Shown in pieces: positions 7,879 to 45,654 of a DNA stretch of 52,087 nucleotides. Numbering within the stretch: position 1 is the stretch's first letter; each line of letters starts with the position of its first letter. The notes under the pieces are model-generated. The model was not told the origin of the DNA and did not search any database. It saw nothing but the letters and a program-made list of their open reading frames with translations. The translations under genes were made by a program, and so were the position numbers. This stretch comes from an uncultured Selenomonas sp. Its GTDB lineage: Bacteria > Bacillota > Negativicutes > Selenomonadales > Selenomonadaceae. The stretch lies in assembly GCA_934202005.1 (NCBI GenBank), contig CAKPXP010000013.1, positions 1 through 52,087 of the forward strand, written 5' to 3'.

Positions 7879-8039
7879 GGAACCGCTGATTAAATGAGGT
7901 GCTCCGGATTTACGTGGATGCGCTGTATCTCTCTAGGAGACAAACCGCAGGCGTAGCTGAAGCTACGCTGAGGATTTGTTGACGACGAGAGGACAGTGCA
8001 GACACGTGAAGACGGAGTGCCGAATTAATCAGTGGTTCC
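7879..8039 (+). mobile_element. Small non-autonomous element (MITE-like), copy 1, 161 bp
   Basis: The left end GGAACCGCTGATTAAAT and the right end ATTAATCAGTGGTTCC are inverted repeats. The element is flanked by TTTA on both sides (7875-7878 and 8040-8043). The same ends and much of the interior recur at 38529-38636 and, inverted, at 45478-45654. It has no coding capacity. The interior carries a perfect hairpin, GCGTAGCT (7951-7958) / AGCTACGC (7961-7968). It sits between the flagellar terminator and uxaC. The transposase that mobilises it is not in the window. Confidence 0.85.
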
Positions 8040-8175
8040 TTTATTCCGCGGAGAGAGGCTGCGATGCTCTGCCTGCAGGCACCGCGCATGTTTGGCGCGC
8101 AAGCAGGATTTTCCCGCCGTGCGGAGAATAAAGTAAGAAGAGAAACAGGAAACAAAGCAAAGGGGGGCTTTCCCA

Positions 8176-9594
8176 ATGAAACGCTTCATGGACGAGGATT
8201 TCCTGCTCGAGAGCGAGACGGCGCAGCGGCTTTACCACGAGCATGCGGCAAAGATGCCGATCCTCGACTTCCACTCGCATGTGAATCCGCGCGAGATCGC
8301 CGAGGACACGCGCTACCGGAATCTCGCGGAGGCCTGGCTCACGGCGGATCACTACAAATGGCGCCTCATGCGCACGGACGGCGTGGAGGAGAAATACATC
8401 ACGGGCGGCAGGGCGGCAGGCCGCGACCGCTTCCAGAAATTCGCTGAGATGATGCCGCGCGCCATCGGCAATCCGATGTACGCCTGGGTGCATCTCGAGC
8501 TCCTGCGCTATTTCCACTCGCGCGTGCCGCTCTCGGGCGAGACGGCGGAAGAGGTCTGGCAGCAGGCGGGCATCGCGCTCGCCGAGCCTGATATGACGGC
8601 GTGCGGCGTGCTCAAAAAGTCGCACGTGCGCCTGCTCGCGACCGTCGACGACCCCGCGGACGATCTCAAGTGGCACACGACCATCCGCGCGGATGGCTGC
8701 GAGACGGCGGTGCTGCCGACGTTCCGCGTGGACGCCATCCTCGACATCGCGGCGGACGACTGGCAGAACTACATGCTCTACAGCCTCGGCGCGGCCGCCG
8801 ATACGGACATCACGACGATGGAGGATGTGCGGACGGCCATCGTGCGCCGCCTTGACGCGTTCGCTGCGCAGGGATGCCGCCTCGTCGACGCCGGCGTCGC
8901 CTGCGTGCGCTACTACGAGGCGGAGGAGTACGAGCTCGACGATATCGTCGGCAAATACCTCAATGGCAAGGGTACGCCAACGCCGCTCGAACAGGAGAAA
9001 TACCGCTCGGCTGTCCTCCTGCTGCTCGGCAAGGAGTGCAGCCGCCGCGGCTGGGTGCTCGAGCTCCACTACGGCGCGCTGCGCAACGTCAATACGAAGC
9101 GCTTCGCGCAGTTCGGCACGGCGGCGGGCTTCGACTGCATCTCCTCGCGCGACTCCGCCGAGGGCATCACGCGCCTGTTCGACGCGCTCGACCGCCTCGA
9201 GTGCCTGCCGCGCACCATCCTCTACCCGGCGAACCCCGCGGACAACGCCGTCATCGGCTCCATCCTCGGCGCGTTCCCCGGCGAGGGCATCCGCGGCAAG
9301 GTGCAGCAGGGGGCGGCCTGGTGGTTCAACAACACGCGATCCGGCATCGAGGCGCAGCTCACGAGCCTCGCGGGCCTCGGCCTGCTCGGCACGACCGTTG
9401 GTACGGTCACGGACTCGCGCTCGCTGTTCTCATTCCCGCGTCATGAGTACTACCGCCGCATCCTCTGCAACTTCATCGGCGGTCTCGTCGAGCGCGGCGA
9501 GTACCCGGACGACGAGAAGCAGCTCGCGCGGCTCGTCGAGGACATCTGCTACGGCAACGCCGCGAGATTTATCGGAATCGATAAGAATCAATGA
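8176..9594 (+). CDS. uxaC: Glucuronate isomerase
   Basis: Converts D-glucuronate to D-fructuronate and D-galacturonate to D-tagaturonate, the first step of hexuronate breakdown. The 472-residue product matches the family length. It shows the metal-site motif DFHSHVNPREI (about residues 31-41) of the amidohydrolase-like fold, MRTDGVEEKYITGG, FHSRVPLSGETAEEVW, LHYGALRNVNTKRFAQFG, then QQGAAWWFNNTRSGIEAQL and FSFPRHEYYRRILC near the C-terminus. A strong AAGGGGGG site precedes the ATG. No other hexuronate gene is next to it. The unknown gene at 9610 follows after 15 bases and is probably cotranscribed. No clear promoter is seen in 8044-8175. Confidence 0.95.
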   Translation: MKRFMDEDFLLESETAQRLYHEHAAKMPILDFHSHVNPREIAEDTRYRNLAEAWLTADHYKWRLMRTDGVEEKYITGGRAAGRDRFQKFAEMMPRAIGNPMYAWVHLELLRYFHSRVPLSGETAEEVWQQAGIALAEPDMTACGVLKKSHVRLLATVDDPADDLKWHTTIRADGCETAVLPTFRVDAILDIAADDWQNYMLYSLGAAADTDITTMEDVRTAIVRRLDAFAAQGCRLVDAGVACVRYYEAEEYELDDIVGKYLNGKGTPTPLEQEKYRSAVLLLLGKECSRRGWVLELHYGALRNVNTKRFAQFGTAAGFDCISSRDSAEGITRLFDALDRLECLPRTILYPANPADNAVIGSILGAFPGEGIRGKVQQGAAWWFNNTRSGIEAQLTSLAGLGLLGTTVGTVTDSRSLFSFPRHEYYRRILCNFIGGLVERGEYPDDEKQLARLVEDICYGNAARFIGIDKNQ

Positions 9595-9609
9595 ATAAGG
9601 AGTTTTGAC

Positions 9610-10200
9610 ATGGCAAAGACGAAGGAAGAACTGGCCGCCGCTGAAGAAAAAGAAGCCCAGGCCACGGAGACGAAGAAGACACCCGATGGGAAGAAGGACG
9701 AGAAACGAGAGGAGAAAAAGACAGAGACGGCGCGCCGCGCTACCCGCGGCGGGAAGACGGGCGTCGAGAGCAACACGAAGGCCCTCGACTTCCAGGAGTT
9801 CCTCGTGGACAACAACATCAACGTGTTCAGCACGGAGTCGCTCGAGGACGAGTACCAGACCGTCATGTTCCGCTCGCGCATCGAGGCCAAGGGGCAGATC
9901 CTGCCGATGGCCATCCTTATCGACACGAGTCTCTTCACCATCATCCGCACGCAGATCGTCACGGGCATTACGGCGGACAAGCGGCCGCGCCTTGAGCACT
10001 ACCTCAATGAGCTCAATACGCAGTACAAGATTTTCAAATACTATCTGCGCGACGATGGCGTCATCTACCTCGACATCTGTCTGCCGTATGTCGATGAGAC
10101 GTTCGACAGCAAGATGATCCAGCTCATGCTCAGCATCCTCGTGCAGCACCTCGAGGCGAGTTACGACGACCTCATGGCGGAGGTCTGGAAAAAGGCATGA
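9610..10200 (+). CDS. Unknown protein with a possible YbjN-like domain
   Basis: Protein of 196 residues. Residues 1-60 are extremely rich in Lys, Glu, Ala and Thr and are probably disordered. The rest is a compact alpha/beta domain with FQEFLVDNNINVFSTESLED, ILPMAILIDTSLFTIIRTQI, YKIFKYYLRDDGVIYLDICL and MIQLMLSILVQHLEASYDDL. The alternation of strands and the closing long helices resemble YbjN / type III-chaperone-like folds, but I cannot confirm this by eye. No signal peptide or membrane segment is seen. The gene lies 15 bases after uxaC and ends before a bidirectional terminator. Confidence 0.6.
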   Translation: MAKTKEELAAAEEKEAQATETKKTPDGKKDEKREEKKTETARRATRGGKTGVESNTKALDFQEFLVDNNINVFSTESLEDEYQTVMFRSRIEAKGQILPMAILIDTSLFTIIRTQIVTGITADKRPRLEHYLNELNTQYKIFKYYLRDDGVIYLDICLPYVDETFDSKMIQLMLSILVQHLEASYDDLMAEVWKKA

Positions 10201-10254
10201 GCGGCGCTTGATGCGGCTGCGCGGTCGCAGCTGCGCCTGTGTCAGGCAGAAAAT

Positions 10255-10304
10255 AAAATGGCTGTCCCCACCCGATGTGGCATCGGTGTGGGGGCAGCCA
10301 TTTT
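10255..10304. terminator. Bidirectional terminator
   Basis: Long inverted repeat: AAAATGGCTGTCCCCAC on the left and GTGGGGGCAGCCATTTT on the right, with a second short stem CGATG/CATCG in the loop. A-tract and T-tract on the two sides let it serve both the unknown gene on the plus strand and the symporter on the minus strand. Confidence 0.85.
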
Positions 10305-10355
10305 GTTTCATGGAACACTGGCGTCATGCAGCGCTTTGCATATCTGCGCGCCGTG

Positions 10356-11561
10356 TCAGGCGCGCTGGTATTTTTTCTCCGTCTCGTTGATGACGCAGGC
10401 GACGGCGGCGTCGCCCGTGATGTTGAGGCAGGTGCGGAACATGTCGAGGATGCGGTCGATGCCGGCGACGAGCGCGAGGCCCTCGAGCGGCAGGCCGACG
10501 GACTGGAGCACCATCGCGAGCATGATGAGGCCTGCGCCCGGCACGCCCGCCGTGCCGATGGAGGCGAGCGTGCCCGTGAGGACGATCATCGCCATCTGGC
10601 CGAAGGAGAGGTCGACGCCGAAGACGTTCGCGACGAAGAGGGAGCAGATGCCCATGTAGACGGCGGTGCCGTCCATGTTGATCGTCGCGCCGAGCGGCAG
10701 GACGAACGAAGTGACCTCGCGCGAGACGCCGAGCTTCTCCTGCGTGTTCTTCATGTTGACGGGCAGTGTGCCCGCCGAGCTGCAGGTCGTGAACGCGATC
10801 ATCATCGCCTCGCTCATGCCCTTGAAGAACGCGAGCGGCGTGTGGCCGCCCCAGACGCGCGCGAGCGTCGAGTAGACGCCGACGGCGTGGATGGCGGAGC
10901 CGATGGCCATGCAGCCGATGACGGAGAGGAGCGGCAGCAGCACGGAGGGGCCGTTCGCCGCGACGACGGGCAGCAGCAGGCAGAAGACGCCGATGGGCGA
11001 GATGGCCATGACCATCGCGATGATCTTGTAGCAGACCTCGGCGCAGGCGTCGAAGAAGCTGATGAGCGTCTTCGCGCGCTCGCCGCCGACCTGCAGGATG
11101 CCGACGCCGACGAAGAGCGCGAAGATGATGATGGGCAGGATGTCAGCCTTGGCCATGGAGGCGACGGGGTTCGCCGGGATCATCGCGACGAGCACCTGCA
11201 TGAGAGACGGCGCCTTCTTGACCTCGACGGCGGCGTCGCTCGTCATGCTCATGCCGATGCCCGGATGGAAGAGCCCCGCGACGGCGAAGCCGATGAGGAT
11301 GGCGATGGCCGTCGTGCAGAGGTAGATGACGATGGTCTTGATGCCGATGCGGCCGAGTTTCTTCGTGTCGCCGATGCTCGTCATGCCGACGATGAGCGAG
11401 GTGAAGACGACGGGCACGATCATCATCTTGATGAGGTTGATGAACATCGTGCCGATGGGCGCGATCCACCACTTGATGAAGGGCAGCGCGTCCGGCCCCG
11501 CGATGAGCCCGACGACGACGGACAGCACGAGGGCGAGGAAGATCTTGACGGATAAATTCAT
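10356..11561 (-). CDS. Dicarboxylate/amino acid:cation symporter (GltP/DctA family)
   Basis: Inner-membrane sodium- or proton-coupled carrier of the DAACS family, 401 residues and highly hydrophobic, with about eight helices and two re-entrant hairpins. Visible motifs are IGTMFINLIKMMIVPVVFTS, the serine-rich hairpin FTTCSSAGTLPVNM, ATINMDGTAVYMGI (the NMDGT motif), IGTAGVPGAGLIML and the substrate-site helix DRILDMFRTCLNITGDAAVA. The substrate (glutamate, aspartate, succinate or similar) cannot be fixed by eye. A GTG at 11570 is in frame, but the AAAGGAG site at about 11571-11577 lies the right distance from the ATG at 11561. It is monocistronic and divergent from rpsB. Confidence 0.92.
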   Translation of the reverse strand: MNLSVKIFLALVLSVVVGLIAGPDALPFIKWWIAPIGTMFINLIKMMIVPVVFTSLIVGMTSIGDTKKLGRIGIKTIVIYLCTTAIAILIGFAVAGLFHPGIGMSMTSDAAVEVKKAPSLMQVLVAMIPANPVASMAKADILPIIIFALFVGVGILQVGGERAKTLISFFDACAEVCYKIIAMVMAISPIGVFCLLLPVVAANGPSVLLPLLSVIGCMAIGSAIHAVGVYSTLARVWGGHTPLAFFKGMSEAMMIAFTTCSSAGTLPVNMKNTQEKLGVSREVTSFVLPLGATINMDGTAVYMGICSLFVANVFGVDLSFGQMAMIVLTGTLASIGTAGVPGAGLIMLAMVLQSVGLPLEGLALVAGIDRILDMFRTCLNITGDAAVACVINETEKKYQRA

Positions 11562-11717
11562 AGAGACCACTCCTTTGCATGTTTTGTATTGTTGTGACTA
11601 TCTTTATTATACGTTGGAAATGAAAGACTGTCTATGGAATATTTCGTCAATTGTCAGCAGTGGGAGGAGGGAGCGCTGGCGCGGCGTCGGAAGCCTGAAA
11701 AATATTTTCCGCGGTGA

Positions 11718-11746
11718 TTGTTTTCCGGAGGTTCCTATGATATAAT
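11718..11746 (+). promoter_or_regulatory. Promoter of rpsB
   Basis: TTGTTT (11718-11723), a 17-base spacer and a perfect TATAAT (11741-11746). This places the start site about 100 bases before rpsB. Confidence 0.75.
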
Positions 11747-11752
11747 GACCAA

Positions 11753-11854
11753 CGGTGTTAGAAAAAGCATGCGGGCGGATGGCTGCCCTGTGCCGCGAAG
11801 CGGTGGCGCAGCCGATGAAGCACGCAGAAGAAAACAACAGGAGGTGCACCAATC
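11753..11854 (+). promoter_or_regulatory. rpsB leader with stem-loop
   Basis: Untranslated leader of about 100 bases. It contains a strong stem at 11781-11813 (GGCTGC paired with GCAGCC around an inner CCGC/GCGG stem). Ribosomal protein S2 leaders are autoregulatory in several bacteria; that this hairpin binds S2 is inference. AACAGGAGGTG is the ribosome binding site. Confidence 0.45.
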
Positions 11855-12589
11855 ATGGCAGTGATTTCCATGAAACAGTTACTCGAAGCAGGCGTCCATT
11901 TCGGACATCAGACGCGCCGCTGGAACCCGAAGATGGCGAAGTACATCTTCACGGAGCGCAACGGCATCTATATCATCGACCTGCAGAAGACGGTCAAGAA
12001 GGTGGACGAGGCTTACGCGTTCCTGCGCAGCGTCGCTGAGGAGGGCAAGAGCGTCCTCTTCGTCGGCACGAAGAAGCAGGCGCAGGAGTCCATCAAGACC
12101 GAGGCGGAGCGCGCCGGTCAGTTCTATGTCAACGAGCGCTGGCTCGGCGGCATGATGACGAACTTCCAGACGATCGAGAAGCGCGTGAAGCGTCTCAAGG
12201 AGCTCGAGGCGATGGAAGAGGACGGCACGTTCGATGTCCTCACGAAGAAAGAGGTTCAGGTGCTCCGTCACGAGATGGAGAAGCTCGAGAAGTATCTCGG
12301 CGGCATCAAAGAGATGAAGAAGCTGCCGGGCGCGCTCTTCGTCGTCGATCCGCGCAAGGAGCGCATCGCCGTCGCTGAGGCGCGCAAGCTCCATATCCCC
12401 ATCGTCGCCATCGTCGATACGAACTGCGACCCGGATGAGATCGACTATGTCATCCCGGGCAACGATGACGCGATCCGCGCCGTCAAGCTCCTCACGGGCA
12501 AGATGGCAGACGCTGTACTCGAGGGCCGTCAGGGCGCCGATGGCAGCGAGGAGGCTCCGGCTGCTGAGGCGGCAAAGGACGCTGAGTAA
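11855..12589 (+). CDS. rpsB: Small-subunit ribosomal protein S2
   Basis: Structural protein of the 30S subunit, 244 residues, the normal length. It shows [20 protein letters not shown] at the N-terminus, [57 protein letters not shown] and [20 protein letters not shown] followed by [13 protein letters not shown]. The C-terminus is an Ala/Glu-rich tail. It is the first gene of the rpsB-tsf-pyrH-frr block, conserved in order in bacteria. Confidence 0.98.
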
Positions 12590-12615
12590 TCAAGTCATCA
12601 AGAATAGAACCTAGG

Positions 12616-12652
12616 ACGGGGTAAGGGATGTTATCCCTTGCCTCGTTTTTTT
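12616..12652 (+). terminator. Terminator or attenuator between rpsB and tsf
   Basis: Stem ACGGGGTAAGGGAT / ATCCCTTGCCTCGT with one mismatch, followed by a run of seven T. It should reduce read-through from rpsB into tsf. Confidence 0.8.
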
Positions 12653-12692
12653 GAGGTAAGACGAAAGCAAGGTACGACAAGGAGGAAATACA

Positions 12693-13559
12693 ATGGCAAT
12701 TACGGCTGCAATGGTAAAGGATCTGCGCGAGAAGACGGGCGCGGGCATGATGGACTGCAAGAAGGCGCTGACGGCGACGAACGGCGATGCGAAGGCGGCC
12801 ATCGACTGGCTGCGCGAGAAGGGCATCTCCAAGGCGGAGAAGAAGGCCAGCCGCATCGCTGCAGAGGGTGCAGTCGCAGCGTACATCACGGAGGACGCGA
12901 AGGTCGGCGTGCTCGTAGAGATCAACTGCGAGACGGACTTCGCCGCGGGCAACGAGAAGTTCAAGGCGCTCGAGGCGAAGATCGCGAAGCACATCGCTGA
13001 GACGGCGCCGCAGGATCTCGACGCGCTCAACGCGAGCGAGATCGACGGCAAGCAGGTCTCTGCGCTCATCACGGACGCGACGGCGACGATCGGCGAGAAG
13101 ATCTCCCTGCGCCGCTTCGTGCGCTACGAGAGCGCGGGCAAGCTCGCGAGCTACATCCACATGGGCGGCAAGATCGGCGTGCTCGTGAACCTCACGGGCG
13201 GCAGCGACGAGCTCGGCAAGGATGTCGCGATGCAGATCGCGGCGGCGAACCCGATCGCCATCGATGAGACGGGTGTGCCGGCAGAGGTTGTCGAGCACGA
13301 GAAGGAAGTCGCGCGCAAGCAGGCCGAGGAAGAGGGCAAGCCCGCGAAGATCATCGACCGCATCGTCGAGGGTCGCATCAAGAAGTATTACAAGGAAGTC
13401 TGCCTCGATCAGCAGATCTTCGTCAAGGATCCGGATAAGACGATCTCGGACATCCTCGGCGGCGAGAAAGTCGTGGAGTTCACGCGCTTCCAGCTCGGTG
13501 AGGGCATTGAGAAGAAGCAGGAGGACTTCGCGGCAGAGGTCAAGGCGCAGATGCAGTAA
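12693..13559 (+). CDS. tsf: Elongation factor Ts
   Basis: Nucleotide exchange factor that regenerates EF-Tu-GTP. The 288-residue product begins MAITAAMVKDLREKTGAGMM followed by DCKKAL, the EF-Tu contact region, then EKKASRIAAEG, VLVEINCETDFAAGNEKF (the second conserved TDFV-like signature) and, in the C-terminal part, FVRYESAGKLASYIHMGGKI. Full length with the coiled-coil insertion expected for bacterial EF-Ts. GGAGGAAATACA precedes the ATG. A terminator follows about 40 bases after the stop. Confidence 0.98.
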   Translation: MAITAAMVKDLREKTGAGMMDCKKALTATNGDAKAAIDWLREKGISKAEKKASRIAAEGAVAAYITEDAKVGVLVEINCETDFAAGNEKFKALEAKIAKHIAETAPQDLDALNASEIDGKQVSALITDATATIGEKISLRRFVRYESAGKLASYIHMGGKIGVLVNLTGGSDELGKDVAMQIAAANPIAIDETGVPAEVVEHEKEVARKQAEEEGKPAKIIDRIVEGRIKKYYKEVCLDQQIFVKDPDKTISDILGGEKVVEFTRFQLGEGIEKKQEDFAAEVKAQMQ

Positions 13560-13599
13560 GCGCCCTGCCCGCTGCGGCGGGCTGATACATGATGAAAAG

Positions 13600-13661
13600 A
13601 GAGGCTGTTGCACAGAAGACGGCGCTCCCGGCGGGAGCAGGAGGTGCGGCAGCCTCTTTTT
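13600..13661 (+). terminator. Terminator after tsf
   Basis: Outer stem AGAGGCTG (13600-13607) with CAGCCTCT, plus GCAC/GTGC and an inner stem GCTCCCG/CGGGAGC, followed by TTTTT. Confidence 0.78.
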
Positions 13662-13803
13662 GAGGAATGACGCACGGAAGCCGCGTGCGGCGGCAGCGCG
13701 GTGCGGAGAATTTGATGGAGGCGGCAGGAGTTTCCCGCTTTCCGTCGAATGAACATACTAGATAGGTTTCAGTCGTTGCTTGGACTGGATGGAGGTTTTT
13801 GTT

Positions 13804-14529
13804 TTGGAAACAGCGAAATATAAACGCGTCGTCCTGAAGCTCAGCGGTGAGTCGCTCGCGGGCGACCAGGGCTTCGGCATCAATCCGGTGGTCGTCGAGG
13901 ATATCGCGGCCCAGGTGAAGCAGGTACGCGAGCACGGCATCGATGTCGCCATCGTCGTGGGCGGCGGCAATATCTGGCGCGGCCTCGCGGGCTCCGCAAA
14001 GGGCATGGATCGCGCGACGGCGGACTACATGGGCATGATGGCGACGGTCATGAACGCGCTGGCACTCCAGGACGCGCTTGAAAAGATCGAGGTCGACACG
14101 CGCGTGCAGACGGCCATCGAGATGCGTCAGGTCGCTGAGCTCTACATCCGCCGCAAGGCCATCCGCCACATGGAGAAGGGCCGCGTCGTCATCTTCGGCG
14201 CGGGCACGGGCAATCCGTATTTCTCCACGGACACGACGGCGGCGCTGCGCGCGGCGGAGATCGAGGCCGATGTCATCCTCATGGCGAAAAAGGGCACGGA
14301 CGGCATCTACGACCGCGATCCGAACAAGTACAAGGACGCGAAGAAGTTCGAGGCGCTCGCCTACATCGAGATCCTCAACAAGGGCCTCGCGGTCATGGAC
14401 TCGACGGCGACCTCGCTCTGCATGGACAACAAGATTCCTCTCGTCGTGTTCAACATCGACGACCACAAGAACATCGTTCGCGCCGCGCTCGGCGAGAATA
14501 TCGGAACGACAGTAGGAGGAAACGTATAA
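13804..14529 (+). CDS. pyrH: UMP kinase
   Basis: Phosphorylates UMP to UDP; hexameric, amino-acid-kinase fold. The 241-residue product shows [15 protein letters not shown] (phosphate loop), [50 protein letters not shown] and [17 protein letters not shown]. Upstream ATG codons at 13780 and 13789 are in frame, but GGAGG at 13791-13795 is ideally placed for the TTG at 13804 and overlaps the second ATG, so TTG is chosen. The frr start follows the stop directly. Confidence 0.95.
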
Positions 14530-28215: not shown

Positions 28216-28365
28216 CTGAGACAACTCCTTTGTATGAAAGGAAAGGCGGACGCCTTTCTCCGGGGAGGCGCGTTTGCCGCGTCTCCTTTGTGCTTTGCTT
28301 GATGTGCTCTTATCGTAGCAGGATGCTGGCGATATTGAAATAGCCAATTTACGATTAAAATAAAA

Positions 28366-38254: not shown

Positions 38255-38448
38255 AAAAAAGGGGTCCAAAATGCCGTTTGCTCACTATGTCGAAAACCCG
38301 CGAAATCGCAGGTGGGTACCCTAAGTCCGGCTTTCGTTACTCGTAACTTGCGATACAACGTCCACAGGAGTCAAATCGGGTTCCCTAGAAAAAGTGTAGG
38401 TTCGACATAATCAGAAGCTCACGCACACCCCAGGCGGTCCCTTCTTTA
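38255..38448 (-). ncRNA. ssrS: 6S RNA
   Basis: RNA of about 194 nucleotides on the minus strand, with its own promoter and a 3' run of six U. The 5' part contains CUGGGGUGUGCGUGAGC, which matches E. coli 6S CUGAGAUGUUCGCAAGC at 12 of 17 positions, with four of the five differences being transitions. The 3' part has CGGCAUUUUGGA against E. coli CGGCAUCUCGGA. The two pair as CUGGGGUG/CAUUUUGG, with G-U pairs keeping the stem. A second long helix, UUAUGUCGAA with UUCGACAUAG, closes the inner part. Outermost, GGG/CCC and AAGAAA/UUUUUU close the rod. 6S RNA binds the housekeeping RNA polymerase and mimics an open promoter. The 5' end is inferred from the promoter. Confidence 0.87.
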
Positions 38449-38483: not shown

Positions 38484-38528
38484 GACTTGACAGGAACGGA
38501 TGAGGGGGAATAATAAGGAAATCCTTTA

Positions 38529-38636
38529 GGAAGCGCTGATTAAATGAGGTGCCCTGAATTTGCGTAGATGCGCTGTATCTCTCTAGGAGACAGTGCAGAT
38601 GCGTAAAGGCAGGGTGCCGAATTAATCAGTGATTCC
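38529..38636 (+). mobile_element. Small non-autonomous element (MITE-like), copy 2, 108 bp
   Basis: Same ends as copy 1: GGAAGCGCTGATTAAAT on the left, ATTAATCAGTGATTCC on the right. Flanked by TTTA at 38525-38528 and 38637-38640. It lacks the internal hairpin block of the other copies; the junction (GGAGACAGTGCAG) is explained by loss of about 53 bp between two GACA repeats. The right-hand TTTA contains the stop codon of the UPF0756 gene on the minus strand. Confidence 0.85.
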
Positions 38637-38637
38637 T

Positions 38638-39093
38638 TTAGCGAAAATGCGTCATGAGATTCATGACGAAGTAGGTGAAGCCGCCTGCGATGAGCGGGCC
38701 GACCGCGACGCCCTTGAACGCGATGACGCCGGCCATCGTGCCGATGATGAGCGCGGGGATGAGCTCGGTGGTCGTCGTGAGCAGCTTCAGCCCGCCGCCG
38801 CCGGCGACGGCCGCGAGCAGCCCCGCGAGCACCGCTACGACGCCGATCGGCGTCTTGAAGGAGTCGATCATCGTCTGGAGCGTGATCTCTCCCGTGGCAA
38901 TCGGCACGAGGATTGCCGCCGTGAGCAGGATGATGCCCCAGTGGAGCCCGTGACTGCCGAGCGCCGTGAGCGCCGTGCCGAGCCCGAGCACCTTAAGCGC
39001 GAGCACGATGCCCGTCGCGTAGACCACCGTCATGTTGTGGCCGATGAGCGAGAGCAGCAGCACGGCGCCGAGTGTGATGTATTCCGTAGCCAA
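38638..39093 (-). CDS. UPF0756 (DUF441, YeaL-like) membrane protein
   Basis: Small integral membrane protein of 151 residues with four to five hydrophobic segments. It shows ILLTAAILVPIATGEI, SFKTPIGVVAVLAGLLAAVA, GGGGLKLL, ELIPALIIGTMAGVIAFKGV and AVGPLIAGGFTYFVMNLM, the pattern of the DUF441/UPF0756 family. Its function is unknown. No ATG is available near the expected start; TTG at 39093 follows AAAGGAAAGG with good spacing and gives the family length, while the ORF runs open to 39147. The stop TAA lies in the target duplication of the mobile element next to it. Confidence 0.82.
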   Translation of the reverse strand: MATEYITLGAVLLLSLIGHNMTVVYATGIVLALKVLGLGTALTALGSHGLHWGIILLTAAILVPIATGEITLQTMIDSFKTPIGVVAVLAGLLAAVAGGGGLKLLTTTTELIPALIIGTMAGVIAFKGVAVGPLIAGGFTYFVMNLMTHFR

Positions 39094-39175
39094 AGAATCG
39101 CCTTTCCTTTCTTTGCCGGTGCAAGTTCTAAAGAATCGCTGCTTCATTCAGCAGTTCCCGAAACTTGCGCTGAGG

Positions 39176-39204: not shown

Positions 39205-39238
39205 GGAAAAAACCGCAAATGAAAAGGAGTAAAATTTC

Positions 39239-39556: not shown

Positions 39557-39561
39557 GCAGG

Positions 39562-39609: not shown

Positions 39610-39630
39610 GGGGGAGTGTGCGTTAGAAGC

Positions 39631-40326
39631 TCATGAGGCGCGGGCAATGGCACTTTCCTCAGTGCTGTGCAGCTTGAGCGCGATTTCGAAGAAATGGCTC
39701 ATCGTCGCTATGTCCAGATCGTCGTTGCCCTGGACATAGCGGAGGATGGCCCTGCGGCAGCGCTGCAGGGCGTTGTCGACAGATTTCACGTTGCGTCCCA
39801 TGCGCTGGGCGATGAGCTCGTAGCTCTCACCGTAGAGACGGGAGAGGAAGACATCGTAGTCGTACGGCGTGAAGATGTGCTCGAAGAGCAGGCGGCAGCG
39901 CTCGTAATCCTCGTAGGTGATGAGTGCTTGTATGGGCGTGCGGAGCTTATCATCGATGAGCGTGTCGAGCCAGCTCGCGCGCTCGTTGTCCTCGTAAATC
40001 GCGACGTCGAGAGAGAGCGCTTGGCTTAGGATCCTGTGCTTGCAGCGGTGCGCGGCCTTGATGGCCGAGATGCACTGGCAGCGGATGCAGCGCACGGCAA
40101 AGGAAGTAAAGCTCGCGCCGCAGGACGGTTGGAAATCCCGCAGGGCCTTGAAGAGACCGATGCGTCCTTCCTGGAGCAGGTCGTCGCGCTCCTGCCCGTC
40201 GATATAGAATGTGCGGCAGGTAGCGAAGACCAACCCCTCGAAGTGGAGGATCAACTGAGAGCCGAGCGTGCTGTCACCTGTTCGCTGATATATGGAAATT
40301 GCTTCTGCGACACTGTTCTCTGCCAT
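39631..40326 (-). CDS. SigH-like RNA polymerase sigma factor
   Basis: Sigma-70 family protein of 231 residues, the size of Bacillus SigH. Region 2 is clear: LHFEGLVFATCRTFYIDGQE, RDDLLQEGRIGLFKALRDFQ, GASFTSFAVRCIRCQCISAI and KAAHRCKHRILSQALSLD. Region 4 helix-turn-helix is SRLYGESYELIAQRMGRNVK followed by SVDNALQRCRRAILRYV. SigH controls sporulation entry in Bacillus and competence in other Firmicutes; its targets here are unknown. A tail of about 25 residues follows region 4. GGGGATCC lies before the ATG. Confidence 0.88.
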   Translation of the reverse strand: MAENSVAEAISIYQRTGDSTLGSQLILHFEGLVFATCRTFYIDGQERDDLLQEGRIGLFKALRDFQPSCGASFTSFAVRCIRCQCISAIKAAHRCKHRILSQALSLDVAIYEDNERASWLDTLIDDKLRTPIQALITYEDYERCRLLFEHIFTPYDYDVFLSRLYGESYELIAQRMGRNVKSVDNALQRCRRAILRYVQGNDDLDIATMSHFFEIALKLHSTEESAIARAS

Positions 40327-40379
40327 TTGAGATCGGATCCCCTTTATTTGAATGCAATCATTTCTTAACTATTTTCTTT

Positions 40380-40388
40380 ATTATAGCA
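40380..40388 (-). promoter_or_regulatory. Extended -10 promoter of the sigma-factor gene
   Basis: Minus strand TGCTATAAT (TATAAT is plus ATTATA 40380-40385), 54 bases before the start codon. No good -35 is seen, which is usual for extended -10 promoters. Confidence 0.55.
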
Positions 40389-40548
40389 TAACAAAAAGGT
40401 AGATAATATGGACAATTGTTGTATCGACTATGTGAAAATGTGATGTGCAACAGAATGGGAAATTATTATAAGTTAAAAGACCTAAGATAATTAGCGATTA
40501 TACGCTTATTTTACAAGTGAGATTTAATTCAATGGGCAATAAGTCTAT

Positions 40549-40577
40549 TTTAGATTAGATAGATATGATGATATAAC
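40549..40577 (+). promoter_or_regulatory. Promoter of the AraC-type gene
   Basis: TTTAGA (40549-40554), 17 bases, TATAAC (40572-40577) with TGA just before. It implies a very short leader and supports the start at 40599 over 40581. The region 40400-40548 is AT-rich without a gene. Confidence 0.55.
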
Positions 40578-40598
40578 GCGATGAGAGGAGCGACGCAG

Positions 40599-41429
40599 AT
40601 GCAGGAATATAGCTATGAGGGAGGAGAGAGCAGTCTGGAACTCATGCCGACGAGCATCGGTCAGGAGGATTGCAGGCCGGGGCATTCCTTCGGCCCTGGA
40701 GAGCGGAATACCTATTTGATTCACTATGTACTGCGCGGTTGCGGTATTTTCTGCGTGGACGGCAGGAAGTATCATGTGGGGACAGGGGAGGCATTCCTCA
40801 TCTGTCCGCGAGAACTCGTCTATTACGAGGCGGATGCCAAGACGCCGTGGTCGTATATGTGGATCGGCTTTTCTGGTTTCAAGGCGGCGGAATGCATCGG
40901 CGAGACCATCCTGCCGGAACGGCGCGTCTTCCGATATAGTGACGAGGAGCTTTGCCATTGTCAGCAGCGCATGCTCGAGGCGCTCCAAGCGGATACGGGA
41001 CGCGAGCTGATGATGGCGAGCGTGCTGTACGAGTACCTGTATCTCCTGCTGCGTCACTACGGGCGTTCGACGCGGCGCGAGAATGTGATCCGCTACGGCA
41101 ACCACTATGTGAAGAAAATCAAGGACTATATCGCCTCCAGCTATGCAGAGGGGATACAAATCAGCGATGTAGCGGCGTATTTGCAAGTAGACCGCAGTTA
41201 TCTCTACCGCCTATTCAAGGAGGAGACAGGAAAATCTCTCCAGGAGTATCTCATTGAGTTCCGTCTGAGGAAAGCCTGTGAACTGCTGCGGACGACGTCG
41301 TATTCCATCGGTGCCGTGGCCTGTTCCGTTGGCTATGCGGATCCCCTTTATTTCACACGCCTGTTCCACAAGCGGGTCGGCATGTCGCCGACGGTGTACC
41401 GTTGCGGACGGGAGATGGCGCGCGAATAG
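40599..41429 (+). CDS. AraC family transcriptional regulator
   Basis: Protein of 276 residues. The N-terminal cupin-type ligand domain is at about 10-110 (YLIHYVLRGCGIFCVDGRKY, TGEAFLICPRELVYYEADAK, WSYMWIGFSGFKA), the AraC_binding pattern usually linked to sugar sensing. The C-terminal double helix-turn-helix is at about 175-270 (ISDVAAYLQVDRSYLYRLFK, EYLIEFRLRKACELLRTTSY, IGAVACSVGYADPLYFTRLF, KRVGMSPTVYR). The ATG at 40599 has GAGAGGAG ahead; an in-frame ATG at 40581 overlaps that site. The regulated genes and ligand are unknown; hcp is next but has a separate operator. Confidence 0.92.
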   Translation: MQEYSYEGGESSLELMPTSIGQEDCRPGHSFGPGERNTYLIHYVLRGCGIFCVDGRKYHVGTGEAFLICPRELVYYEADAKTPWSYMWIGFSGFKAAECIGETILPERRVFRYSDEELCHCQQRMLEALQADTGRELMMASVLYEYLYLLLRHYGRSTRRENVIRYGNHYVKKIKDYIASSYAEGIQISDVAAYLQVDRSYLYRLFKEETGKSLQEYLIEFRLRKACELLRTTSYSIGAVACSVGYADPLYFTRLFHKRVGMSPTVYRCGREMARE

Positions 41430-41439
41430 TTTGGGCGGT

Positions 41440-41453
41440 GTAACATCTGTTAC
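41440..41453 (+). promoter_or_regulatory. Palindromic operator before hcp
   Basis: GTAACA-TC-TGTTAC, a perfect 6-bp inverted repeat 81 bases before the hcp start. A possible -10 (TAAGAT) lies about 24 bases downstream. Such palindromes fit CRP/FNR-family regulators, and hcp genes are often controlled by the nitrosative-stress regulator HcpR of this family. No such regulator is encoded here, so the assignment is inference. Confidence 0.5.
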
Positions 41454-41534
41454 GGCACTGGCGGCTCCTACATGGTAAGATGAGGCCATAGATAACGAAG
41501 CGAGTTTTTGGAGAGCTTGGAAGGAGCGGTTACG

Positions 41535-43175
41535 ATGGAAAACGCTATGTTTTGTTTTCAGTGTCAGGAGACGGCGGGCTGCAAGGGCTGCACGCGCGTC
41601 GGTGTCTGCGGGAAGAAGCCGGAGGTCGCCCGCATGCAGGATCTGCTCATCTATGTGACGAAGGGGCTCGCCGCCGTGACGACGCGCCTGCGCGCCGAGG
41701 GAAAGGAGATCCCGCAGGAGGTCAACCATCTCATCACGCAGAATCTCTTCGTCACCATCACGAACGCGAACTTCGATCGCGAGGCCATCGCGGCGCGCGT
41801 CGCGGAGACGCTCGAGGTGAAGGAACAGCTGCTCGGCGAGCTCCTCGACCGTTCGGATCTGCCGGAGGCGGCCCTCTGGCGGGACAAGGAAGACGCGTTC
41901 GATGCGAAGGCGCAGTCATCCGCGGTCGGCGTGCTCGCGACGCAGAATGAGGACATCCGCAGCCTGCGCGAGCTCATCACCTACGGGCTCAAGGGCCTCG
42001 CGGCGTATCTGCATCACGCGAACATGCTCGGCGAGGAGCGTGAGGACATCGACGCGTTCCTGCAGAAGGCGCTCGCGTGCCTCCTCGACGATACGGCGAC
42101 GGCGGACGACCTCACGGCGCTCACGCTCGAGACGGGCGAATGGGGCGTCGAGGGCATGGCGGCGCTCGACAAGGCGAACACGGAGCACTACGGCAATCCT
42201 GAGATCACGAAGGTGACGCTCGGCGTGCGCAAGAATCCGGCCATCCTCATCTCCGGCCACGATCTGCACGACCTCGAGATGCTGCTCGAGCAGACGCAGG
42301 GCACGGGCGTCGATGTCTACACGCACGGCGAGATGCTGCCTGCGCACTACTATCCGGCGTTCAAGAAGTACGAGAACTTCGTCGGCAATTACGGCAACGC
42401 CTGGTGGAAGCAGAAAGAGGAGTTCGAGGCGTTCGGCGGCCCCGTGCTGCTCACGACGAACTGCCTCGTGCCGCCGAAGGAGAGCTATCGTGAACGCATC
42501 TTCACGACGGGGGCTGTCGGCTATCCCGGCTGCCCGCACATCGAGACACGCGCAGACGGTACGAAGGACTTCACGCCGCTCATCGAGCTCGCGAAGAAGT
42601 GCCCCGCGCCGCAGGAGCTCGAGCAGGGCGAGATCGTCGGCGGCTTCGCGCACGAACAGGTCTTCGCGCTCGCGGATAAGGTCGTCGATGCCGTGAAGAG
42701 CGGCGCCATCAAGAAGTTCGTCGTCATGGCGGGCTGTGACGGCCGCCAGAAGAGCCGCGAGTACTACGCGGAGTTCGCGAAGGCGCTGCCGAAGGATACG
42801 GTCATCCTCACAGCGGGCTGCGCGAAGTACAAGTACATCAAGCTCGGTCTCGGCGACATCGGCGGCATTCCGCGCGTGCTCGACGCCGGACAGTGCAACG
42901 ACTCGTACAGCCTCGCGCTCATCGCGCTCAAGCTCAAGGAAGTCTTCGGCCTCGCGGACGTCAACGAGCTGCCGATTGCCTACAACATCGCCTGGTATGA
43001 GCAGAAGGCCGTCATCGTCCTGCTCGCGCTGCTCCACCTCGGCGTGAAGAACATCCACCTCGGCCCGACGCTGCCGGCGTTCCTCTCGCCGAACGTCGCG
43101 AAGGTGCTTGTCGAGAACTTCGGCATCGGCGGCATCACGACGGTCGAGGAGGATCTGAAGACGCTGATCGGCTGA
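41535..43175 (+). CDS. hcp: Hydroxylamine reductase / hybrid-cluster protein
   Basis: Iron-sulfur protein of 546 residues involved in nitric oxide and hydroxylamine detoxification. The N-terminal cluster motif is [20 protein letters not shown] with a following CGK. Hybrid-cluster ligands are visible in [62 protein letters not shown] and [20 protein letters not shown]. The length matches the class with four Cys in the N-terminal CxxC-x7-CxxC-x5-C region. The frame is open to 41508, but GGAAGGAG and the conserved N-terminus point to the ATG at 41535. Its electron donor could be a ferredoxin. Confidence 0.96.
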
Positions 43176-43204
43176 GCGAAGTCCTTTCATAAGAAATCCT
43201 ATAG

Positions 43205-43255
43205 AAAAACAGGGCGGGCGCAAAGTGAAAAACACTTTGCGCCCACCCTGTTTTT
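43205..43255. terminator. Bidirectional terminator between hcp and ferredoxin
   Basis: AAAAACAGGG-C-GGGCGCAAAGTG and its complement around a 5-base A-rich loop, flanked by A5 and T5. It serves hcp on the plus strand and the ferredoxin gene on the minus strand. Confidence 0.9.
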
Positions 43256-43337
43256 GTTGCGCGAAGATAGATGCAGATGGATATTGGCTGGCGCGCAGGC
43301 TGTGGCATCAGCTCCGCACACAGCAAGATAGCGCCGC

Positions 43338-43529
43338 CTATTGCGGCTGTACTGAGATGGCGCCAACAGGACAATCGAGGGCGGCGTCCATGACATCGTC
43401 GAGATCCTGGGGGAAGACGTAGCCGCCCTGCGCGCGGTGCTGCGCCGTGAGGGAAAAGATCTGCGGACAGACATCGACACACATGCCGCAACCGACGCAG
43501 CGCGCTTCCTCCACAGTGACACGCATCAT
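43338..43529 (-). CDS. Single-cluster [4Fe-4S] ferredoxin
   Basis: Protein of 63 residues with CVGCGMCVDVCPQIFSL (from about residue 11) and a remote DCPVGAISV, the Fer4_13-type pattern for one [4Fe-4S] cluster. The start ATG overlaps the stop of the upstream GGDEF gene (ATGA), so it is likely translationally coupled to a signalling protein; a second in-frame ATG at 43526 is possible. It faces hcp across a terminator, so a link to Hcp as electron donor would be functional only, not transcriptional. Confidence 0.92.
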   Translation of the reverse strand: MMRVTVEEARCVGCGMCVDVCPQIFSLTAQHRAQGGYVFPQDLDDVMDAALDCPVGAISVQPQ

Positions 43530-45406
43530 GGAGTCTCCTCGTGCGCCGCTTCCGTGTAGTCTTGTACGATCAGTGCGAGGCGATGCGCTTCCTTGCCTGT
43601 CTCCACGAGGTTGCAGGCGTGCGCAGCGACCATATTGCCGTCCTCTCTGACAAGTTCACAGGCGAGATATTCCTGCCCTGCGGGCGATAGGGAGGGCAGG
43701 GGGCAGCTGCGGCAGGGCAGGCTCCGGCCATGCAGGAGTTTGTAGCAGGGCGTATCCAGGGCGATTCCTGTGTCAGCCGGGCGCATGGTGCGCCCGACAT
43801 AGACGGGGATCATCGTTTCCTTGTCGACGACATAGACGAGCCCTGGCAGGTGATCGAGGATGTCGTGCAGGATGCGCAGATTCTTGCGCAAGTGCTTGGA
43901 GGTGTCGGATGGGAGCAGGATATTGCCGAGCAGTACAGAGAAGACGTTGAGACTGCGGATGAGCTCGGGCGTGATGCGCATGGAGTGCGTGCTCTCGACG
44001 CCGATGCAGCCTGTGGTAGCCTCTCCCTGTGTGATGAGGGAATAGGCATAGGCACCGAGGTGGCAGTTGGGGAGCGGCGTGTCTTCCTGCGCCTGTTTGG
44101 CCGTGTCTTCGCAGATGGCCATGACGCCGTAGGCCGTCGGCTTTGCATGCCGGAGAATCAGCGTACGACGCCTGGTGAGGCAATCCGGCGTGACATTCTT
44201 GAGCAGAGCGCCATTGGGGCCGAGCCATTCATAGGCATCCTGGTAGGCGCCTGTCTCGAGGTCGCAGCGCGCGATGACGATGCGGTCGAAGTTGTAGAGG
44301 CGTCCGAGCAGGCCGAGTGCGTAGTCGATGGTCGCCTCGGCGCTGTTGGTTTCATAGAAGATCTGCAGGATGAACTCCGCCATATTGTCCTGGAAGGCCT
44401 TCATCTGCAGGTCGAGGGTGCTTTCGGGATCGCGCTGGCTTTTGATCTGCGGCGCCTGGTAGATCTTGTTTTCGTAGATGCGGAACTGATTTTTCCCGCG
44501 GCTCTTCGCCTCGTAGAGCGCGCGATCGGCATGCTTGAAAAGCTCGCGGTAGGTGAGTCCGTGGTCGGGGTAGAGGGCGATGCCCATGCTGATGGAGAAC
44601 GGGAGGCGTCGCCCCTCCGCGCAGTAGTCGTGATGCATGGCCTCGATGAGCTCGGCGCAATGACGGCGGACGCCGTCGAGATTTGCGGTATGCGGCAGGA
44701 GGACGACGAACTCATCGCCGCCGATGCGCCCCTTGATGTCTGAGTGGCGGAAATGATGCTTGATGGTATGGCCCATTTTCGCGAGGACACCATCGCCGAA
44801 CAAGTGTCCGAAATTATCATTGATGGCCTTGAATCCATCGGCATCGAGCAGCAGCATCATGGCGGCGTCGTGCTCGGGAGAGAGCATCGAGAGGCTGGCC
44901 TCCATATGGCGGATGGCGGCATCCTTCGTGAGGAGCCCGGTGAGGCTATCGTAATCGGCCCTTTGCTGCAGACGGTGCTGCCAGAGCTTCTGCGCCTGTA
45001 TGCTGCGCAGTTTCCCAAAGGCTATCATGGGGCGCGCCCCCTCGAAATACGTCAGCAGATGCACCTCTGCCCAGAGGTATTTATTCTTGTGGTGACGGAT
45101 GCGCAATTTGCAGCTCGCCTTGCGGATGGAATCGTCCGTCGGTGCCTGCTCCTGGAATAGGGTGTGCAGATAGGTGTGCAGCAGGGGACGGTCATCTGGA
45201 TGCAGGAATTCCTGCGTCCAGAGCATCGTGGAGGCCTGACAGACCTCCGGCGGGAGATCGTGGAATTTCCGCGGTACGGGCTGGTGGAACGTAACGATGT
45301 CGCGGGTGAGATCCCAGCGGAAATAGAGATGCTGATCGAGGCTATTGAGTTTGTGAAATATGTTTTCCGTAAATGCAGAGGGAATCATAGTGCGTGCGTC
45401 ATTCAT
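43526..45406 (-). CDS. PAS-GGDEF-GAF-PAS sensor diguanylate cyclase
   Basis: Cytoplasmic protein of 626 residues without membrane segments. Residues about 20-145 are a PAS_3-like domain (LYFRWDLTRDIVTFHQPVPR; LRIRHHKNKYLWAEVHL). The GGDEF domain at about 150-315 has DYDSLTGLLTKDAAIRHME, LLLDADGFKAINDNFGHLFG, an intact IKGRIGGDEFVVLLP and FSISMGIALYPDHGLT. A GAF-like domain follows (about 345-505), then a short PAS-like domain with DTPCYKLLHGRSLPCRSCPL, three Cys that could bind metal or sense redox. It should make cyclic di-GMP. The order, with sensors after the cyclase, is unusual. The ferredoxin gene overlaps its stop. Confidence 0.88.
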   Translation of the reverse strand: MNDARTMIPSAFTENIFHKLNSLDQHLYFRWDLTRDIVTFHQPVPRKFHDLPPEVCQASTMLWTQEFLHPDDRPLLHTYLHTLFQEQAPTDDSIRKASCKLRIRHHKNKYLWAEVHLLTYFEGARPMIAFGKLRSIQAQKLWQHRLQQRADYDSLTGLLTKDAAIRHMEASLSMLSPEHDAAMMLLLDADGFKAINDNFGHLFGDGVLAKMGHTIKHHFRHSDIKGRIGGDEFVVLLPHTANLDGVRRHCAELIEAMHHDYCAEGRRLPFSISMGIALYPDHGLTYRELFKHADRALYEAKSRGKNQFRIYENKIYQAPQIKSQRDPESTLDLQMKAFQDNMAEFILQIFYETNSAEATIDYALGLLGRLYNFDRIVIARCDLETGAYQDAYEWLGPNGALLKNVTPDCLTRRRTLILRHAKPTAYGVMAICEDTAKQAQEDTPLPNCHLGAYAYSLITQGEATTGCIGVESTHSMRITPELIRSLNVFSVLLGNILLPSDTSKHLRKNLRILHDILDHLPGLVYVVDKETMIPVYVGRTMRPADTGIALDTPCYKLLHGRSLPCRSCPLPSLSPAGQEYLACELVREDGNMVAAHACNLVETGKEAHRLALIVQDYTEAAHEETP

Positions 45407-45477
45407 GGGGAGATCCTTTCCGAGCCTAGGAAGTCAAGTACAGGGAAACGCTGATCTATGCGCGCCTCGCTATTTAA

Positions 45478-45654
45478 GGAATCACTGATTCATTCGGTAC
45501 CCTGCCTTTGCGTATCTACACTGTCCTCTCGTCGTCGACAAATCCTCAGCGCAAAACGCGATGGAGCGTTTTGCCGCTACGCTTCCGGTTTGTCTCCTAG
45601 AGAGATACAGCGCATCCGCGTAAATCCGGAGCACCTCATTTGATCAGTGCTTTC
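45478..45654 (-). mobile_element. Small non-autonomous element (MITE-like), copy 3, 177 bp
   Basis: Inverted relative to copies 1 and 2. Plus-strand ends are GGAATCACTGATT (left) and TGATCAGTGCTTTC (right). Flanked by TTAA at 45474-45477 and 45655-45658. The interior matches copy 1 (GTTTGTCTCCTAGAGAGATA and CTGTCCTCTCGTCGTCGACA), but its hairpin block is GCAAAACGC (45551-45559) / GCGTTTTGC (45566-45574) instead of the GCGTAGCT stem. It lies 71 bases upstream of the GGDEF start codon. Confidence 0.83.

Follow-up and report, generated by a model that had tools for sequence, protein, structure and literature searches.

What holds a miniature mobile element together other than the ends by which it moves? 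The stretch of Selenomonas DNA analysed here (52,087 nucleotides; 'the window') carries three short, related sequences between inverted terminal repeats. Long hairpins are a common feature of bacterial MITEs, but their importance can seldom be judged independently of the inverted repeats. The present family allows the distinction: its ends change in the manner of DNA sites and its core in that of a folded strand, and one core occurs on two kinds of ends. We conclude, with a probability of roughly 0.7, that the three elements belong to an IS5-mobilised family of the Negativicutes whose core is selected as a folded strand and whose ends are exchangeable. The family is very large, and comparison of its copies indicates that the hairpin shape of the middle is kept while the sequence and the mobile ends change.

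Three mobile elements in the window

The sizes of 161, 108 and 177 bp given in a first-pass annotation for the three elements (e1, e2 and e3; Table 1) agree with the sequence read at the three places, and the target duplications that it listed (TTTA, TTTA and TTAA) are all exact over 4 bp. Also as claimed, the elements lack coding capacity, with no open reading frame of ≥100 amino acids inside any of them. The proposed end pattern, GGAAxCRCTGATTAA, holds for the ends generally, but not for one end of e3, which has two mismatches (GAAAGCACTGATCAA). Within the window, GGAANCRCTGATTMA is matched exactly at element ends only (7879, 8025, 38529, 38622 and 45478); when up to three mismatches are allowed there are 21 matches versus 11.3 expected, a number reached in 2 of 100 shuffles. 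The interiors share the similarity that had been noticed, at 85–94% in BLAST matches (e1/e3, 94% over 72 nt and 85% over 74 nt; e1/e2, 91% over 64 nt and 85% over 48 nt). The orientation of e3 is opposite to that of e1 and e2, and the centre of e2 is missing, apparently deleted between two GACA repeats. A default repeat search of the three element stretches returned no inverted repeat, presumably because the hairpin is imperfect, and a plasmid collection gave no match to the elements. A terminator-like hairpin (7843–7869) lies directly ahead of e1.

Table 1 Features of the three elements and of an empty site in the window
Feature	Position	Strand	Remarks
e1 left target duplication TTTA	7875..7878	.	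exact; in T-tract of terminator-like hairpin
e1, full-length element, 161 bp	7879..8039	+	core 5'→3' on + strand; sequence, BLAST, covariance model
e1 left terminal inverted repeat GGAACCGCTGATTAA	7879..7893	+	pattern match
e1 structured core	7900..8020	+	covariance model R1, 127 bits; e1 in training set
Tandem G·A mismatch site 1	7907..7908, with 8011–8012	+	e1
Tandem G·A mismatch site 2	7917..7918, with 8001–8002	+	e1
Tandem G·A mismatch site 3	7937..7938, with 7981–7982	+	adjoins invariant G–C (7936/7983)
Site 4, G·A / bulge / A·G	7947..7949, with 7970–7971	+	e1
e1 right terminal inverted repeat GGAACCACTGATTAA	8025..8039	-	pattern match
e1 right target duplication TTTA	8040..8043	.	exact
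Empty site, single CTTA	28309..28312	.	G001 has 177-bp copy flanked on both sides by CTTA
e2 left target duplication TTTA	38525..38528	.	exact
e2, 108-bp copy without centre	38529..38636	+	sequence, BLAST; 46.5 bits with covariance model
e2 right target duplication TTTA	38637..38640	.	exact; includes TAA stop of DUF441 gene
DUF441 gene	38638–39147	-	TAA stop within e2 right duplication
e3 left target duplication TTAA	45474..45477	.	exact
e3, 177-bp subtype, longer central hairpin	45478..45654	-	sequence, BLAST, covariance model
e3 right target duplication TTAA	45655..45658	.	exact

The suspected abundance of the elements genome-wide was borne out in the nearest of the genomes compared (G001), which has 162 exact ends compared with 0 for the backwards control pattern. 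The empty-site comparison proposed in the first pass found what transposition predicts: e1 and e2 are missing from G001, where each has an empty site with a single target, and the window provides the reciprocal case (Table 1). e3 is also missing from G001, in surroundings too diverged for its insertion site to be read. Across the window, G001 and G036, an exact 4-bp duplication flanks 59 of the 89 copies whose ends could be paired, compared with a permutation mean of 13.0 and a maximum of 25 in 5,000. Pairing of the ends followed a rule and drew on 80 short loci and eight longer sources; copies with unpaired ends or a repeated flank-plus-start key (for example, L116, L171 and L175) were left out, and the mispaired L169 and L186 are counted as failures within the 89. 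In another genome, G193, the duplication is exact in 39 of 70 copies.

Insertion sequences and the ends they share

A transposase with the same ends, which had been predicted to exist or to have existed elsewhere, was found in a related genome. There, locus L061 contains a full-length IS5-family insertion sequence (522–1784, 1,263 bp) with element-type ends and a TTAA duplication; its transposase has 333 amino acids and scores 318 bits with NF033581 (cut-off, 140). G001 retains a relic of an NF033581-type insertion sequence, with ends as in the elements. The empty sites and an insertion sequence with matching ends were both as predicted, and therefore support the mobile-element reading; at the level of sequence comparison, e1, e2 and e3 are confirmed as MITEs, non-autonomous mobile elements that would use the enzymes of other elements. 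Of the opposing possibility, a structural repeat that is not mobile, the immobility falls and the structure stands: the interior is a structure kept by compensatory changes. A plain MITE reading does not predict such a structure in the interior.

The correspondence between elements and insertion sequences is looser elsewhere. G193 has a 71%-identical transposase without stops (L468; NF033581, 309 bits), bounded by GGAATCACTGATAAA on one side (GATAAA, like the G193 elements) and GGAAACACTGAAAAA on the other, with flanks TTAA/CTAA that do not form an exact duplication. IS5_4 transposase matches occur in 6 of 14 and 4 of 18 element-bearing genomes, several of them broken or partial, and no second end was found for the IS5_4 copies in L080, L082 and L084. 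The insertion sequence of G002 ends in GATTTAA and the elements of that genome in GATTAA or GATGAAA, which counts against a strict match of ends. When four elements were compared with four insertion sequences by blastn, the ends matched over 12–17 nt (best E = 3e-5); the best match beyond the ends (E = 0.028) was 16 nt between the centre of e1 and the G001 relic.

In G009, G033 and G081, the same core lies between GGGCGTGTTGATTAA ends. G081 also has an insertion sequence whose ends are identical to these and which encodes a broken DUF4096 transposase (PF13340, 91.8 bits); its relative in G023 scores 136.8 bits with NF033580 (cut-off, 110). Insertion sequences with GGGCGTGTTGA-type ends are present in G081 and G023, and none was recognised around isolated GGGCGTGTTGA ends of G009 and G033. 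Next to the insertion sequence of G081 lies approximately the last 80 nt of an element, with one end and no covariance-model match; the whole elements of G081 with GGGCGTGTTGATTAA ends lie elsewhere in the genome (L267). By these comparisons, one core carries the ends of two IS5 subgroups, NF033581-type and DUF4096-type.

The folded core and its strand

Aligned copies indicate that the core of around 130 nt between the ends is one long hairpin with four tandem G·A sites, kept by compensatory change. e1 is a single hairpin of around 160 nt, with a fold of −102.8 kcal/mol for the core strand versus −73.7 kcal/mol for the other strand; DNA parameters leave the order of the strands unchanged (−45.9 versus −35.3). 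Both sides have changed in 33 of 50 stem pairs, and 95.0% of cells are paired, a value reached in none of 500 shuffles and compared with 35–47% in slid controls. G·A sites 1, 2 and 4 are kept in 35–38 of 38 rows and site 3 in 30 of 38; in genera outside the training set, sites 2–4 are kept in 18–24 of 27 rows and site 1 in 13–14 of 27. The 27 rows were taken from 44 (loci L282–L307) after removal of one reverse-strand duplicate, and among them are weak model matches (f28, f30 and f31; L296, L301, L303 and L304) that may represent another kind of repeat and on which no conclusion is based. The hand-picked sets of 38 and 29 copies were spread over genomes, and most of their members lie within a 123-copy set.

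Among genomes of the class, a covariance model of the core matches 103 of 380, in 32 of 102 genera, and one genome has at least 120 copies. The controls were the window, in which the model finds exactly e1, e2 and e3 at E ≤ 0.01 (e1 being in the training set), and five loci (43.5 kb) without a full element, in which it finds nothing at E ≤ 0.1. Against Rfam 15, e1 gave a single match at chance level (E = 0.28), which was rejected, and elements of ten distant loci gave none at E ≤ 0.5. A literature search on Selenomonas and Negativicutes found no report of MITEs or palindromic repeats.

Reconstruction of changes on a tree shows the core to be one-sided, at least as read from these alignments: an excess of G·U favours one strand, on internal branches only and not in the end repeats. 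Changes from Watson–Crick pairs to G·U, A·C and other states are near equal on terminal branches (60, 59 and 61), whereas G·U and A·C stand at 45 and 15 on internal branches (median p = 0.0012). By region, the internal counts are 41 and 10 in the core versus 3 and 4 in the terminal repeats, the latter a contrast that rests on few events (15 pairs); slid controls have no effect. The analysis covered 112 of the 123 copies, after copies that were shorter than 140 nt, duplicated or contained N had been dropped, and used a tree of 160-nt sequences, between which recombination is possible. A cruder count without a tree, over 66 copies of G001 and the window, gives 158 G·U and 80 A·C; as the excess is present even among such near copies, the case for neutral recent change depends on the tree.

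Two other sources of the bias were considered. A role as a cruciform would involve both strands and was set aside, given that the G·U/A·C bias is one-sided. C-to-T damage of an exposed strand is disfavoured by the changes on terminal branches (C>T, 43; G>A, 37) and on internal branches (A>G, 13; T>C, 6).

Selection of the core as single-stranded DNA, for example as a one-strand hairpin that pairs the ends or recruits a host factor during replication or transposition, is unlikely but has several results in its favour. Single-stranded DNA also tolerates G·T and G·A better than A·C, and the strand-specific fold holds with DNA parameters, so that these two points do not tell RNA apart from single-stranded DNA. 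Selection shows on lineages that propagate but is not seen on resident copies, as a role in mobility would predict. Orientation relative to flanking genes is unbiased in G193 (13 sense and 19 antisense, p = 0.38; of 70 copies, 18 lacked a usable neighbour and one was in a gene, in 40 stretches chosen around model matches), and 8 sense and 15 antisense copies were counted among 44 in mixed genomes; a role in co-transcription is therefore not visible there. However, G·U fills 228 cells and A·C 29, an excess more typical of RNA, and we know of no strand-specific single-stranded intermediate in IS5-type transposition.

It is rather improbable that these are ordinary MITEs in which only the terminal repeats matter, with an interior palindrome inherited from a founder and its pairing kept by template-switch (quasipalindrome) correction instead of selection. 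Such an account explains the mobility and the IS5 ends fully, and long hairpins are described as usual in bacterial MITEs (PMC2229807, PMC10969869). Correction should erase mismatches, but the G·A sites persist across genera and in other families; nor would it account for the accumulation of G·U on one strand, on internal branches and in the core but not the terminal repeats, or for a core that occurs with two kinds of ends. It is very improbable that the core is an RNA gene or cis-regulator useful to the host, captured by transposon ends and then kept site by site: the core is structured, favours one strand, spans the class and is nearly always intergenic by crude gene call (43 of 44 copies in mixed genomes; 1 of 70 inside a gene in G193), but a site-by-site role predicts constraint on resident copies, and terminal-branch changes look neutral, copies are polymorphic between close genomes and no Rfam family matches the copies scanned.

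Proposed propagation and known systems

According to the preferred reading, of an IS5-mobilised family with a selected core, the DNA ends look like exchangeable vehicles, and selection would act on the core in the form of a folded single strand, which is most likely RNA. The elements would be moved in trans by IS5-family DDE transposases, which would recognise the terminal repeats of about 15 bp and duplicate a 4-bp TTAA-like target. The RNA form would arise when an element is co-transcribed with a neighbouring gene, and copies that keep the fold would leave more descendants. With selection acting on the core, the ends would be exchangeable and could be replaced by the ends of any resident IS5-type insertion sequence. 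As a guess, the folded strand might recruit a host RNA-binding protein or nuclease and so make insertions into transcribed intergenic regions tolerable.

More tentatively, the family may be a class-wide structured RNA that travels as the cargo of miniature transposons, with a constant rod-like core bearing four tandem G·A sites and with interchangeable ends from at least two subgroups of resident IS5-type elements (possibly with a third type of end in genus g13). If so, it would be in logic a bacterial counterpart of SINEs, an RNA parasitising the enzymes of others, yet moved as DNA. The question of whether MITE cores are functional in themselves becomes testable, with hundreds of natural copies and a defined motif available for probing and assays. 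This large repeat family of Selenomonas and relatives, without an Rfam 15 match in the scanned copies, could also be annotated.

Among known repeats, RUP and BOX of Streptococcus pneumoniae are described as having terminal repeats similar to the ones on a resident insertion sequence (PMC3049150), as the present elements do. Unlike the present elements, RUP, BOX and SPRITE are reported to be uncommon in species other than S. pneumoniae and S. mitis (BOX-type repeats also in S. suis), and the word 'compensatory' is absent from that paper (PMC3049150). ERIC/IRU and Correia/NEMIS, by their descriptions, are similar in size (100–200 bp) and in target duplications; they form hairpin transcripts, proposed as RNase targets in co-transcribed RNA, and no constant core with exchanged ends is mentioned in those accounts (PMC2229807, PMC3049150). 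The bcr1–bcr3 repeats of the Bacillus cereus group are likewise described as high-copy, intergenic and MITE-like, and bcr10 and bcr18 as transcribed with a conserved secondary structure (PMC3446304); the set is described for one species group, whereas the present core spans a class in which matching insertion sequences are present. There is also a likeness to IS5-derived MITEs (NF033581), with terminal repeats common to an autonomous IS5-family element of related genomes, TTAA-like 4-bp duplications, no transposase, high copy number and intergenic positions. The present elements differ from these in that the interior has no convincing match to the four insertion sequences beyond the ends, and in that its structure is conserved across genera and two kinds of IS5 ends.

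Copies in the window and evidence of mobility

Three copies in the window (e1–e3) are mutually homologous when compared with one another, and the positions, GGAAxCRCTGATTAA ends and 4-bp target duplications that the first-pass annotation had ascribed to a dispersed family of non-autonomous elements (MITEs) were all reproduced. The lone end-like sequence before e3 may be what is left of an older element.

Elements and neighbouring features in the window
Feature	Position	Strand	Remark
Terminator-like hairpin	7843-7869		e1 inserted in its T-tract
e1	7879-8039	+	161 bp
Glucuronate isomerase gene			downstream of e1
6S RNA gene	38259-38439	-	RF00013, 63 bits
e2	38529-38636	+	108 bp; shortened, centre missing; ~90 bp upstream of the 6S RNA gene, on its promoter side
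DUF441 gene			flanks e2 opposite the 6S RNA gene; stop codon inside the duplicated TTTA
Lone end-like GGAAACGCTGATCTA	45444-45458		partnerless; 20 bp before e3
e3	45478-45654	-	177 bp; subtype with longer central hairpin and opposite orientation
GGDEF gene		-	e3 upstream of it

Empty sites, which had been proposed as the sign of transposition, occur in G001, the nearest to the window of the genomes compared (23% of sampled 31-mers are common to both). G001 is uninterrupted at the e1 site, with a single TTTA, and at the e2 site, with a single target copy in which TTCA replaces TTTA; e3 is also missing, from a diverged intergenic region in which the target site is unreadable. Reciprocally, a 177-bp copy in G001 (contig C11, L114 8226-8402) with CTTA duplicated is absent from the window, the counterpart of which has a single CTTA at 28309-28312. 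Exact 4-bp duplications flank 59 of the 89 copies with pairable ends (3 from the window, 63 from G001 and 23 from G036), as against a mean of 13.0 and a maximum of 25 in 5000 rounds of random flank pairing; a length of 2 nt fits 4 copies, 3 nt fits 2 and 5 to 9 nt fits 0. TTAA is the most frequent target (24/59), and 39 of 70 copies in G193 have an exact 4-bp duplication. As mobile DNA, the element shows the features of a MITE that were examined here.

Insertion sequences and probable exchange of ends

A full-length insertion sequence with the same ends, which the annotation had proposed to look for, is present in G009 (L061 522-1784, 1263 bp). It is bounded by GGAAACACTGATTAA and GGAAATACTGATTAA with TTAA duplicated, and its transposase is a 333-aa DDE protein (NF033581, IS5_4; score 318 bits, family cut-off 140). 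A relic of 465 bp in G001 has these ends too and is flanked by TTAA; its transposase match covers 34 C-terminal residues (E 4e-6), and an element has inserted immediately next to it. The G193 transposase is 71% identical and has no stops; its insertion sequence ends in GGAATCACTGATAAA on one side and GGAAACACTGAAAAA on the other, with TTAA and CTAA as flanks. Whole or partial transposase matches were found in 6 of 14 and 4 of 18 element-bearing genomes in two surveys. From our reading of a few genomes, the end variants of a genome often appear to match its resident insertion sequence: elements and resident insertion sequences share GATTAA in G009 and G001, and GATAAA in G026, G190 and G193. 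G002 shows a mismatch, with GATTTAA in the insertion sequence versus GATTAA and GATGAAA in the two elements inspected.

The ~130-nt interior between the terminal repeats (the core) also occurs with other ends. In G009 and G033, a core 72-75% identical to e1 across ~145 nt is bounded by TA followed by GGGCGTGTTGATTAA, replacing GGAAxCRCTGATTAA; G033 contains both kinds of element. G081, congeneric with G009, has elements with such ends (L267). It also has an insertion sequence of 802 bp whose ends are exactly of the GGGCGTGTTGATTAA type, which has duplicated TA and encodes a broken transposase containing a DUF4096 domain; the final ~80 nt of an element adjoin it. The insertion sequence and L012, an element of G009, have identical ends over 15-17 nt, and a relative in G023 has GGGCGTGTTGAAAAA ends and a transposase scored as IS5_3 (NF033580). 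Because the same core occurs with two end types and insertion sequences have those ends, the sequences indicate that the core is carried by ends from two kinds of IS5 element. A third type of end, GGTGCTGGTGGTAAAA, is a single case in genus g13.

In L064 483-512 (G001, contig C1), the 15-bp end is tandemly duplicated and the whole element is flanked by TTGA; L012 has a similar duplication of the other end type. Such duplicated ends are a possible step in end exchange. Elements of G036 with the same kind of ends form size classes of 279, 66-67 and 44 bp (L062 506-784, L190, L191, L192-L195), the largest carrying an extra insert and the small ones barely more than ends.

A folded core with a one-strand bias

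With its TTTA flanks, e1 is predicted to form a single hairpin of -102.8 kcal/mol (z -15.0); the predicted value for its complement is -73.7 kcal/mol (z -11.6). A structural alignment of 38 copies, taken from the window and 13 genomes, has 95.0% of cells paired (0 of 500 shuffles were as high); both sides have changed at 33 of 50 pairs, and sliding the partner lowers pairing to 35-47%. In contrast to the variable sequence of the paired stems, the unpaired sites are conserved: two tandem G.A/A.G places in the outer stem are kept in 35, 37, 35 and 36 of the 38 copies, a G.A/A.G and one bulge close to the loop in 36 and 38, and the G.A/A.G flanking the inner stem in 30 and 30. The A.G of the inner stem is replaced by C.A in six copies, and the adjoining G-C is invariant (38/38). 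Two further element families in G009 and G033 have only the core centre in common with these copies, and different surrounding stem sequences: one has GGGCGTGTTGA ends (L226 150-311, L230 162-323 and L238 2490-2651, in G009 and G033), the other GGAAACG ends (L065 1307-1465, L032 and L050, in G009).

Single transitions from a G-C or A-U pair yield G.U or A.C, which swap on the opposite strand, and equal counts are expected if the folded strand is unselected. A tree built from 112 copies placed 60 changes to G.U and 59 to A.C on terminal branches, and 45 and 15 on internal ones (median Fisher p 0.0012, maximum 0.005, with random tie-breaking); changes to other mismatches numbered 61 and 25, respectively. 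The bias remained when the ambiguous segment 50-55 was left out (p 0.005), when the terminal repeats were (51 versus 45 terminal, 41 versus 10 internal; p 0.002) and when both were (p 0.011). Slid controls, with the partner shifted along the alignment, showed no G.U/A.C effect, and the terminal repeats alone, with few events, showed no bias (internal, 3 G.U versus 4 A.C). The bias is located in the core, not in the terminal repeats. We interpret this as neutral decay of resident copies, with propagating lineages keeping the core strand folded. Tree-free counts, which count shared inheritance repeatedly, gave 228 G.U and 29 A.C in the 38 copies, 160 and 23 in segments set purely by geometry, 158 and 80 one-sided departures among 66 copies from the window and G001, and 166 and 14 within 70 G193 copies. 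Folded RNA and single-stranded DNA fit the bias alike, as DNA parameters give the same strand order (-45.9 for the core strand, -35.3 for the other).

Distribution and relation to known repeats

BLAST matched e1 in 14 of 60 relatives. A covariance model built on the core alone (E<=0.001 per genome, strict filters) matched 103 of 380 genomes of the Negativicutes in 32 of 102 genera, 77 of them in the family of the window and 26 in ten other families (best E there, 1e-20 in f11 and f15, and 3e-18 in f4). Copies per genome reached at least 120 in G193, 87 in G168 and 50 in G046; a pattern scan of named genomes gave at least 120 stretches. Untrained genera supplied 27 aligned rows (26 loci), of which 20 come from other families. 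In this alignment, which is fitted to the model, tandem G.A sites 2, 3 and 4 of the hairpin are kept in 21, 22 and 24 of 27 rows and site 1 in only 14, with 64 G.U versus 21 A.C.

Hosts among the matches listed for the pattern scan include Selenomonas, Mitsuokella, Anaerovibrio and Schwartzia, together with a rumen genome that carries the label Desulfovibrio. The last, from goat rumen, has a full element (L308 2118-2277, core 128 bits), reflecting either a mis-binned contig or transfer. Weaker matches in f28, f30 and f31 (L301, L303, L304 and L296) have a hairpin with CTAGGCG or similar plus CGCAGATGG or similar, and may be a separate structured repeat. On G193 contig C1, identical-scoring copies form two close pairs, with 239 bp between the members of one (907264/907503) and 266 bp between those of the other (1568847/1569113).

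Rfam 15 models gave no match to the element copies scanned. Stable hairpins and terminal repeats resembling insertion sequences are common in bacterial MITEs, according to passages of PMC10969869, PMC2229807 and PMC3049150, and passages of PMC3446304 describe conserved structure in some bcr repeats. Set against those descriptions, the element differs in its constant core, of which one strand is favoured, and in ends that appear exchangeable.
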